Assembly: GCA_016866875.1 (NCBI GenBank)
Contig: VGKY01000001.1
Coordinates: forward strand, 120,057-162,882
DNA from: Candidatus Peribacteria bacterium
Lineage (GTDB): Bacteria > Patescibacteriota > Gracilibacteria > Peribacterales > Peribacteraceae
Length of the DNA stretch: 42,826 nt
Direction of reading: 5' to 3'
Part shown: positions 37,687 to 42,826 of the stretch, one piece after another
Numbering within the stretch: the first letter of the stretch is position 1
Layout: every line of letters begins with the position of its first letter
Position numbers and translations under genes: made by a program
The notes under the pieces: model-generated
The model's input: only the letters and a program-made list of their open reading frames with translations
Told to the model about the DNA's origin: nothing
Database searches by the model: none

Positions 37687-37703
37687 ATGAGCCTCAGGCT
37701 CAT
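37687..37703. repeat. ATGAGCCTCAGGCTCAT palindrome
   Basis: A 17-bp palindrome followed by a partial direct copy (TCAGGCTCATCAG). A variant, GTGAGCCTGAGGCTCAT, lies in the leader of the large surface protein gene at 40539-40555. Confidence 0.6.
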
Positions 37704-37785
37704 TCAGGCTCATCAGCCGATTTCCATGCACTATTTATGGCCAAAAGCTGATTCTATTCTCGTGCGATTGCGTGGGCATACGCGC

Positions 37786-38944: not shown

Positions 38945-39477
38945 AACTCTTGAAGAGACCATGGGCGGTGTGTGGGTTAATATTACTTAATTCAATAATA
39001 TTGACTTCATGTCAAAAAGATTTAGAAATTAACATTAATGCAGCTCCGGCCGATGCGTCGTCGCAGGAGGATGCTCCCGCCAGTCACCCCATATCCGGCC
39101 TACCACAGCGTCGGATTTCCCTCATCAACGAAAATGGCAATAGCGTCGATATTCTTGCCGAGATCGCCGATGAGCCCCAGGCTCAAGCACGCGGACTCAT
39201 GGGTCGGGAGAGGATGTCTCCCGGCGAGGGCATGCTCTTTGTCTTTGCGGAGGAAGCACCACGCGGATTTTGGATGAAAGACACCCTGATTCCTCTCGAT
39301 ATTCTCTTTTTCGATGCCTCCGGTACGTGGGTGTCGGCCCATACCATGGTGCCCTGTGAAGAGGATCCTTGCCCCACAACGCTCTCGGCAAAACCTGCCC
39401 GCTACGCGCTCGAGGTTTCCACGGGATTCCTCACGGGGTACGGAGAGGGGTGGAGGCTCGCAGCGAGCAACGAGTAG
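38941..39477 (+). CDS. DUF192 lipoprotein
   Basis: A 178-residue protein. The N-terminus is a lipoprotein signal (MKLLKRPWAVCGLILLNSII, then lipobox LTSC at residues ~22-25). Residues ~60-175 are a DUF192 domain: AEIADEPQAQARGLMGRERM, GMLFVFAEEAPRGFWMKDTL and IPLDILFFDASG are the standard segments. DUF192 proteins are periplasmic or surface beta-barrel-like proteins of unknown role. The codons of the signal part (38970-39040) are much more AT-rich than the rest, with a TTGAC-TTCAT-GTCAA palindrome at 39001-39015. Overlap with rpe indicates coupling. Confidence 0.9.
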   Translation: MKLLKRPWAVCGLILLNSIILTSCQKDLEININAAPADASSQEDAPASHPISGLPQRRISLINENGNSVDILAEIADEPQAQARGLMGRERMSPGEGMLFVFAEEAPRGFWMKDTLIPLDILFFDASGTWVSAHTMVPCEEDPCPTTLSAKPARYALEVSTGFLTGYGEGWRLAASNE

Positions 39478-40469: not shown

Positions 40470-40499
40470 AGTGTAGTGAGCAAGTTCGATGCTTGTCAA
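40470..40499 (-). promoter_or_regulatory. Promoter of purC, leaderless
   Basis: On the minus strand TTGACA (40499-40494), 18 bases, TACACT (40475-40470), then 6 bases to the ATG. The best-matching -35 in the window. It shares its -35 position with the divergent promoter. Confidence 0.7.
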
Positions 40500-40521
40500 A
40501 ACATCGAGAATTTGCTATACT
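40493..40521 (+). promoter_or_regulatory. Promoter of the large surface protein gene
   Basis: TTGTCA (40493-40498), 17 bases, TATACT (40516-40521) with an extended TGC (40513-40515). The start point would be near 40528, giving a leader of about 56 bases that contains the GTGAGCCTGAGGCTCAT hairpin (40539-40555). Confidence 0.65.
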
Positions 40522-40583
40522 CATGAGAAAACTGCGTCGTGAGCCTGAGGCTCATCACCCCAAAAAAACACATCCAAATCCCG

Positions 40584-42826
40584 ATGGGACGCACTCCCAA
40601 AATCCCGGCCAGCATCCAGGAACTGAAGAAGTTCCTCGCGGACGCATCGGCATTGGCCGCAGGCATCGGCGGGCTCACGCGGGAAGGCAAGCTCGATTGG
40701 ATCCGAAATCTCCTCTCGCGTTTTTCCTACGACGCCCTCAGCCGCGAGGACAAGGGCACGCTCAAGCTGTACCTCGAGAAGACGACGGGGTACTCGCGCG
40801 CGCAGATGACACGGCTCATCGCCGAGAGTCGGAGTGCGATACGCCAGGCATCCCCCGTCACGGAGCATGCACTCAAAACAGAGATGGTGCGCAGACCTTT
40901 CGCTTGTGCCTGGACGGTGTCTGCGGCAGCTCTGACGCTGCTCGTCATGGTACGCGGATGGGGAGGGAGCACGACTGCATCGCTCACGGTGCTCAGCGGT
41001 GATCTCGAGCGCAGAATCTCCAGCTTGGAAGACGATCTCCATGGTCCGCGCCTCTCGCGGATCCTGACGCAACGCACGCTCGATGATGGAACCATAACGA
41101 CAGATCCGCTCTTGCTGAACTATGAGACCATCGGGAGCGTCGATGGCGCACTTGTGCGTCAGAACTTCGTCGCACTTTCTGCCGAGGAACTCGAGCGCAA
41201 AGTCGATGAGCGACGTGCCTTGCGCGAACTGCAGCAGGCGTTTGGTATCGGTGGTGCTCATGGAACGTCCATCAATGCTCGGGATGCCCTGCAGGCCACT
41301 GCGTCGCAGCGGCGCGCGCAGCGCATGCTCACGCGGGGGGAGTCCGCGCCCCTTGTGAGCCAGCCCATTGCTGTGTTTCCTTCCTACGATGTTGCCAACG
41401 AAAAGCCCAAGCCCACACCCTCGCACGGCAGCGCTCCCGCGACCGCGGTCGCCCGAAGTTCAGCGATCATCGATGCGCTTGGCGGTGGCACGGATGGACA
41501 GATTCTGATGATTGAGAATGGATCCGCTGTCTGGCGCGACATGCCTTTCCGTGAACAGATCCGCGAACTTGCACCGCATGGTTCGGAGAGGACATCGCGT
41601 GGTGGAGACGGAGGTCGCCGGTCGGGTGGAGGGGGTGGCGGAGGTGCGGCTGCAACGAGCACAGTCACCAATACGACAACGACGATCACCCAGACGATCG
41701 ACTCCGCCGAGTGGACGGACGGCGGCACCGATGTCTATCTCACGACCACGACGGACAACGTCGTCATTGGCGCAACGACAGCGGACACAAAGCTCGAAGT
41801 GGTCGGCACAATCTCTGGATCGGTGCTCTATGCGAAGGATTCCCTGCGCTCATCGGGATCTCTTGTCTGGGAAGGTGCAGCTTCTGGTGCATCACTCTGG
41901 ATCTCAACATTCGATGGTGCAGGACTTACCGACTGTGACGCAGCCAATACGAGCAAGCTGCTCTGGGACTCCACAACCAAGAGATTCACTTGTGGTACGG
42001 ATCAGGGAGGCGCTTCGGCTCCCACGGCAGGTCAGGGCTTGAGTCTGAGTCTTGCCAATGTGTTCAGTCTCAATTCCTCCTTCTCCGGCACCTCTCTCGA
42101 AATCCTCGGTACCTCCTCCGGCCGCATCCTCTACGGCGCAGACCAGATCCTCGGCTCGGGAACCCTCCTCACCGATGGTGCTATCCGCTCCAAGGCCTCG
42201 CTGCGCTCCTCGGGCACCCTCGCCATCGACGGCATCGCCTACCTCAATGACGATCTCCAGCTCCTCGGCGGAGACATCACCGGAGCCAACTCCGCTGCCC
42301 TCGATCTCGGAGAAGCTGTCTCCGGGGACATCTCCGTCACCGGAGACTTCATCGTCGCCGACAACAGCTTCTTCGGTCTCTCTTCCTCTACAGGCAGATT
42401 CGAATTCGACGATCAGACCATCGACGAATTCAACATCCTCAATGCCAACGTCGGTATCGGCACCGCTACCCCCGCCTACACTCTCGATGCCGTTGGCTCC
42501 ATCCACGCCTCTGTAGGCCTCTCCTCCTCAGGGACCCTCGTCTGGGAAGGAGCAGCCTCTGGAGCTTCTCTCTGGGTCTCCTCGGTAACGATTGGAGGTT
42601 CACTACAGGGAGTTGGCCTCACGGATTGTGACAATGCGACGACAAGTAAACTCCTCTGGGACGCCACCACCGGCCGCTTCTCCTGCGGTTCGGATCAGGG
42701 TGGTTCCAATGCTCCCCAAGCAGGACAAGGCTTGACTCTCAATGGCAGCAACTTCTTCTCTTTGAGCACTTCCTTCTCCGGCACCTCTCTCGAAATCCTC
42801 GGTACCTCCTCCGGCCGCATCCTCTA
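40584..42826 (+). CDS. Large membrane-anchored repeat protein (runs off right edge)
   Basis: The frame from the ATG at 40584 is open to the window end, at least 747 residues. Residues 1-~90 are a helical domain (GKLDWIRNLLSRFSYDALSR, then TTGYSRAQMTRLIAESR) that resembles the helix-turn-helix part found before integrase/transposase catalytic domains in candidate phyla. Residues ~105-126 are one transmembrane segment (FACAWTVSAAALTLLVMV), followed by a coiled-coil stretch, a Gly-rich hinge (~340-350), a Thr/Ser stretch, and then beta-rich repeats (VVGTISGSVLYAKDSLRSSG, LEILGTSSGRILYG, VGIGTATPAYTLDAVGSI) like phage tail-fibre and trimeric adhesin stalks. The start follows CATCCAAATCCCG. Function is probably adhesion to a host or surface; inference only. 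Confidence 0.75.
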   Translation, partial: MGRTPKIPASIQELKKFLADASALAAGIGGLTREGKLDWIRNLLSRFSYDALSREDKGTLKLYLEKTTGYSRAQMTRLIAESRSAIRQASPVTEHALKTEMVRRPFACAWTVSAAALTLLVMVRGWGGSTTASLTVLSGDLERRISSLEDDLHGPRLSRILTQRTLDDGTITTDPLLLNYETIGSVDGALVRQNFVALSAEELERKVDERRALRELQQAFGIGGAHGTSINARDALQATASQRRAQRMLTRGESAPLVSQPIAVFPSYDVANEKPKPTPSHGSAPATAVARSSAIIDALGGGTDGQILMIENGSAVWRDMPFREQIRELAPHGSERTSRGGDGGRRSGGGGGGGAAATSTVTNTTTTITQTIDSAEWTDGGTDVYLTTTTDNVVIGATTADTKLEVVGTISGSVLYAKDSLRSSGSLVWEGAASGASLWISTFDGAGLTDCDAANTSKLLWDSTTKRFTCGTDQGGASAPTAGQGLSLSLANVFSLNSSFSGTSLEILGTSSGRILYGADQILGSGTLLTDGAIRSKASLRSSGTLAIDGIAYLNDDLQLLGGDITGANSAALDLGEAVSGDISVTGDFIVADNSFFGLSSSTGRFEFDDQTIDEFNILNANVGIGTATPAYTLDAVGSIHASVGLSSSGTLVWEGAASGASLWVSSVTIGGSLQGVGLTDCDNATTSKLLWDATTGRFSCGSDQGGSNAPQAGQGLTLNGSNFFSLSTSFSGTSLEILGTSSGRIL
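42078..42133 (+). repeat. Internal repeat of the surface protein gene
   Basis: These 56 bases are identical to 42771-42826, a spacing of 693 bases or 231 codons. The flanking units (LVWEGAASGASLW ... LLWD ... CGTDQGG against LVWEGAASGASLW ... LLWD ... CGSDQGG) are also clearly related. Confidence 0.85.

Follow-up and report, generated by a model that had tools for sequence, protein, structure and literature searches.

The adhesin gene and its surroundings

The window is a 42,826-nucleotide stretch (contig C1, positions 120057-162882) from the 1.12-Mb draft genome of a Candidatus Peribacteria bacterium. It closes within a large open reading frame that starts with an ATG at 40584 and is still open at the end of the window and of the contig. 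We refer to the product as an adhesin on the basis of its domain architecture and repeats. The gene and the DNA upstream of it contain the following features:

37688-37712, no strand assigned: secondary site cluster between tpiA and rpiB, made up of TGAGCC-TCA-GGCTCA and a third half-site
39171-39185, no strand assigned: secondary palindrome within the DUF192 gene, TGAGCC-CCA-GGCTCA
40493-40498, + strand: -35-like hexamer TTGTCA, separated from the -10 box by 17 nt, read from the sequence
40516-40521, + strand: -10 box TATACT; TATAAT/TATACT is conserved upstream of most adhesin genes
40540-40554, no strand assigned: predicted operator, the palindrome TGAGCC-TGA-GGCTCA, made of two opposed ATGAGCCTGA half-sites, the same word as at transposon ends
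40584-40878, + strand: transposase-derived, putatively DNA-binding N-terminal domain (N-domain), residues 1-98, helical and predicted to be cytoplasmic (homology, profile, tree and model)
40743-40850, + strand: putative helix-turn-helix (HTH) with helix 54-68, a turn at TGY and a recognition helix 72-89 bearing SRAQ (AlphaFold model and recognition code)
40896-40952, + strand: transmembrane (TM) segment, residues 105-123 (hydropathy)
40953-42826, + strand: predicted extracellular part, comprising a linker, a Gly-rich hinge (from 41601) and beta-rich repeats with a 231-aa period, open at the contig end

The two secondary palindromes, at 37688-37712 and 39171-39185, belong to a site array in the 4.5 kb preceding the adhesin gene; sites inside the DUF192 gene are also found in G003 and G004, which belong to the same genus. 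The leader at 40555-40583 is A/C-rich (ACACAAAAACACAC type), as are those of the orthologues, most of which have no clear Shine-Dalgarno sequence. Most adhesin genes adjoin the tpiA-rpiB-rpe-DUF192-purC cluster.

The last 127 nt of the adhesin frame (42700-42826) match the start of a second contig exactly (G000:C6:1-127). The first frame of that contig, 1131 aa long, is likely the continuation of the window adhesin, which would give a joint length of ~1.84 kaa. The assembly break falls inside the adhesin repeats, which leaves their copy number uncertain. The genomes analyzed are drafts, and contig ends cut many adhesin genes. The C-terminus encoded on C6 resembles that of complete orthologues (2.7-3.9 kaa), with the series WNACIR...GRYH...WTHPDL...LP followed by a Ser/Glu-rich tail. 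The 231-residue period reported in a first-pass annotation of this DNA was reproduced, with 52% identity at lag 231 and no other lag close to it. Pfam returned no match for the ectodomain parts in the window and on C6, with the known adhesin families YadA, S74 tail fibre and FG-GAP considered. The orthologue in G034 has an ectodomain with FG-GAP and LVIVD propeller repeats, and ectodomains differ widely between species. Two more large proteins with the same kind of repeat are encoded at G000:C2:32000-48000 (L057); these have signal-peptide-like starts and no DNA-binding domain.

Hydropathy placed a hydrophobic stretch at residues 105-123, in agreement with the single TM segment previously located at ~105-126. 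Among the 32 loci read, the N-domain precedes such a segment in 28 and a weaker one in the remaining 4. The order of DNA-binding domain, one TM segment and outer domain, with the membrane orientation as predicted, is that of membrane-integrated one-component regulators. The topology was assigned by hydropathy, with the N-domain probably inside the cell; the charge rule favors this N-in arrangement only mildly (14 of 32 are more positive inside and 9 are equal). Tandem DNA-binding domains are found ahead of the TM segment in two genomes, with three copies in G024 (L041) and two in G013 (L039).

Origin of the N-terminal domain

A sequence search located the N-domain in 23 of 59 relatives, including the genome of the window, all from the same family. 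Profile searching found it in 31 of 57 Peribacteria genomes, and in 29 of these it is on an adhesin. Most copies are only 28-40% identical to that of the window, in which the TTGYSRAQMTRLIAESR motif occupies residues 67-83. Scanning the N-domain against Pfam and NCBIfam gave no significant match, and the window protein did not match Pfam Trans_reg_C, the ToxR/CadC winged helix. A PDB sequence search with the N-domain returned nothing significant, and scanning contigs with just the N-domain revealed no relatives.

The first-pass annotation had proposed that the N-terminus is transposase-like and that an HMM comparison would bear on this; the similarity proved significant whichever side served as the query. 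A profile derived solely from adhesin domains matched 79 of 79 rve/DDE transposases from many phyla (E 3e-25 to 4e-11), together with transposase-sized open reading frames across the phylum. Conversely, the match in G025 is an rve/DDE transposase which, used as a query, returned other transposases as well as the N-termini of adhesins from seven genomes (E 1e-8 to 6e-6). The two sets of N-domains share 27-43% identity. A profile-profile comparison (A2 versus A3) was set aside as evidence because the window sequence was present in both alignments. The nearest NCBIfam families to these rve transposases are IS481 and then IS3, both far below the cut-off. No rve catalytic domain was found in the adhesins, which on this count are not functional transposases, whereas the transposases do contain it.

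In a phylogenetic tree, all 35 adhesin domains form one clade (support 0.96) that adjoins nine transposases, including those from Peribacteria and Peregrinibacteria (support 0.86). On the species tree the N-domain is scattered, which suggests a single capture followed by losses. These sequence comparisons are best read as a single event in which a membrane-anchored adhesin acquired the DNA-binding domain of a transposase. The two-way homology thus supports the earlier proposal that a DNA-binding domain was reused at what is probably the cytoplasmic end of the adhesin.

An AlphaFold model, for which transposase homologues were included, contains five helices (33-46, 54-68 and 72-89 among them) and turns at the conserved TGYSRAQ (mean pLDDT 79, core 80-92). 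Searching the PDB for related folds gave no significant hit; the best partial matches included homeodomains and an Lrp-type regulator. The previously suggested HTH is thus borne out in part: helices 54-68 and 72-89 and the intervening turn are as expected of such a motif, but the PDB match is not significant.

A word shared by transposon ends and adhesin promoters

Transposon ends were located using an inverted-repeat search that was blind to the motif, and 58 gave a clear repeat. The word ATGAGCCTGA, with at most one mismatch, is present in 41 of the 58, against a random expectation of 0.0004; most often there are two direct copies, spaced about 35 bp apart. Its density immediately 5' of the transposase exceeds that in the far flanks about 80-fold. 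The tetrad of the recognition helix covaries with the end word. SRAQ is paired with AGCC in 25 of 25 cases, whereas transposases with other tetrads have AGCC in 9 of 29. Further pairs are SRQQ with AGTC (4/4), S[P/A/G][A/S]Q with AGCA (5/5) and SD[A/S]Q with AGCCC (3/3). The mutual information between tetrad and word is 2.2 bits, compared to 1.1 after shuffling, with a p-value of 2e-4 that is inflated by phylogenetic relatedness; a similar result was obtained with 40 non-redundant domains. At the transposase loci L108-L187, which span many phyla, the SxxQ residues can be read against bases 4-8 of the end motif as a code.

The adhesins carry SRA(Q/H) in 33 of 35 domains and SRAA in the other two, and their operators contain AGCC. 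Retention of SRA(Q/H) despite an identity to the window copy of mostly 28-40% is hard to reconcile with the N-domain being a relic that no longer binds DNA and serves as an inert cytoplasmic anchor. Some Peribacteria do without the domain, which would fit a relic, but it is duplicated or triplicated in two genomes and co-occurs with the operator. We consider an inert anchor very improbable.

The same word recurs at the adhesin promoters. The typical arrangement is TGAGCC-N3-GGCTCA following a TATAAT-type -10 box, about 30-45 nt before the start codon. In 28-30 of 32 adhesin genes, opposed half-sites are located in the interval from the -10 box to the start. A ATGAGCCTGA half-site with at most one mismatch is present in 28 of 32 promoters, 28-fold above background, and two of the four misses (L037 and L050) reflect start codons that the script placed inside the site. 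The spacer and the number of half-sites vary, with single or direct sites in L048, L049, L051 and L237. Measured from the first base of the -10 box, the dyad lies at ~20-24, 27-34 or 39-45 nt, and these three groups of distances are spaced by about one helical turn (19 genera, phasing p about 0.02). Such phasing near the promoter suits a protein bound on one face of the DNA, and suggests repression.

Loci that lack the N-domain provide a natural control. In the same region of 19 such Peribacteria loci, half-sites occur only at background (9 in 223 kb, 0.040/kb). Two Peribacteria have the adhesin minus the N-domain, and the sites are absent there. In genus g5, the adhesin beside purC has a short N-terminal tail and a TM segment, with no HTH and no half-site. 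Twelve domain-bearing genomes contain 23 near-perfect palindromes in all, 20 of them at the adhesin locus, compared to zero in four genomes without the N-domain. Of the 29 domain-bearing genomes, at least 14 contain the exact TGAGCCTNAGGCTCA palindrome, as do 0 of 28 others. The N-domain and the sites come and go together.

This co-occurrence also bears on whether the palindrome is instead a 5'-leader hairpin unrelated to the N-domain. Its location in the predicted 5' UTR and its complementary arms would suit an RNA element. However, the identical word is found at transposon ends, some promoters have only single or direct half-sites, and changes in one arm are mostly uncompensated (L040, L043, L044, L046, L050 and L242, with compensation only in L052). 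The palindrome is absent where the N-domain is absent, and an Rfam search of the promoter region gave no match. An RNA element is thus hardly likely. Nor do we think it at all probable that the operator is used by another, soluble protein of the same specificity, such as a transposase or a regulator. A related transposase-sized copy does occur in three sampled Peribacteria (G025, G062 and G078), but in the genome of the window the adhesin is the sole N-domain copy, even at E<=10, and the TGAGCCTNAGGCTCA palindrome was not found in the transposase-only genomes G025 and G062.

Additional half-sites extend upstream of the promoter. Between -250 and -4500 of domain-bearing loci there are 66 in 127 kb (0.52/kb), compared to 0.03/kb farther away. 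We examined whether the extra palindromes could be remnants of insertion sequences and rejected this origin: transposon ends consist of direct copies ~35 bp apart, whereas the palindromes consist of opposed copies 2-3 bp apart. The enrichment over both distant DNA and domain-free loci (0.04/kb), together with the location of some sites in coding sequence (DUF192), would fit an N-domain that mainly holds the locus at the membrane, for co-translational insertion of a giant protein (transertion) or for chromosome placement, with transcriptional control secondary. The number of extra sites varies from 0 to 8 per locus, however, and the most conserved site lies 20-45 nt after the -10 box, a position typical of a repressor. 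Tethering as the main role is thus possible, though not probable. Several promoters also have upstream half-sites, which, along with the HTH-TM-ectodomain architecture, would be compatible with a CadC/ToxR-like one-component surface receptor in which engagement of the adhesin outside the cell alters DNA binding inside, causing activation or derepression. We regard contact sensing of this type as unlikely, as there is no sign of a signal and the ectodomains vary so widely among species.

A proposed model of autoregulation and its parallels

Taken together, the sequence data make it probable that the captured transposase domain kept its specificity and that the membrane-anchored adhesin binds and represses its own promoter; it may also hold the locus near the membrane. 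In a Peribacteria ancestor, the HTH domain by which an rve/DDE insertion-sequence transposase recognizes the ends of its element would have been fused to the N-terminus of a giant membrane-anchored adhesin. The fused domain would have retained its ATGAGCCTGA specificity, with opposed half-sites just downstream of the adhesin -10 box. Synthesized in the cytoplasm and held by its single TM segment, the adhesin would bind its own operator through the N-domain, and once enough of it had reached the membrane its transcription would be repressed. The additional sites within 4.5 kb could give several membrane-held domains a grip on the locus, perhaps keeping it near the membrane.

The first-pass annotation had offered three roles for the N-domain. 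Regulation of its own gene gains evidence from the predicted operator, a chromosome tether stays possible and a simple anchor is disfavored. Autorepression by the membrane-anchored adhesin is the most likely function. Tethering may accompany it or be the main role, contact sensing is possible, and the three are mutually compatible. More tentatively, and with rather less confidence than we place in autorepression, we suggest that the adhesin is its own membrane-tethered transcription factor, recognizing, controlling and physically anchoring its own gene together with neighboring sites, possibly upon contact with a host cell.

If correct, this would be a bacterial case in which the DNA-binding domain of a transposase was exapted together with an intact binding site and joined to a surface protein, and one polypeptide would connect an outside-facing adhesin to its own promoter. 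In this candidate-phylum lineage, the regulation of attachment is almost wholly uncharted. The claim is directly testable because of the recognition code across the transposase family, in which pairs of SxxQ residues predict the bound base pairs. Our searches of the open-access literature did not turn up an adhesin that carries a transposase DNA-binding domain and has the corresponding transposon-end site at its promoter.

The closest relatives, the rve/DDE insertion sequences, have the N-domain (27-43% identity) and the target word ATGAGCCTGA in common with the adhesins. They differ in possessing a catalytic domain, which the adhesins lack, having a TM segment and an ectodomain; in addition, their ends carry two direct copies ~35 bp apart, whereas the adhesins have a palindrome at the promoter. 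RodZ has the same order of HTH, TM segment and outer domain as the adhesin. It is a shape factor that acts with MreB and is not known to have a comparable operator at its own gene. RodZ has been reviewed (PMC6946637). CadC is a membrane-integrated regulator that activates the cadBA operon through a winged HTH, and it resembles the adhesin, as does ToxR, in combining a cytoplasmic DNA-binding domain, a single TM segment and an outer domain (PMC5430869). The protein studied here differs from CadC in the transposase origin of its HTH, in an outer part that is itself a giant adhesin, and in its predicted target, the gene that encodes it. Domesticated transposon proteins have also been reviewed (PMC8987985). 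Among these parallels, the TldR proteins are transcription factors derived from transposon nucleases that control flagellin, and offer another instance of a transposon protein that has come to regulate a surface structure; they differ from the adhesin in being RNA-guided relatives of TnpB that are soluble and unfused to a surface protein (PMC13418256).
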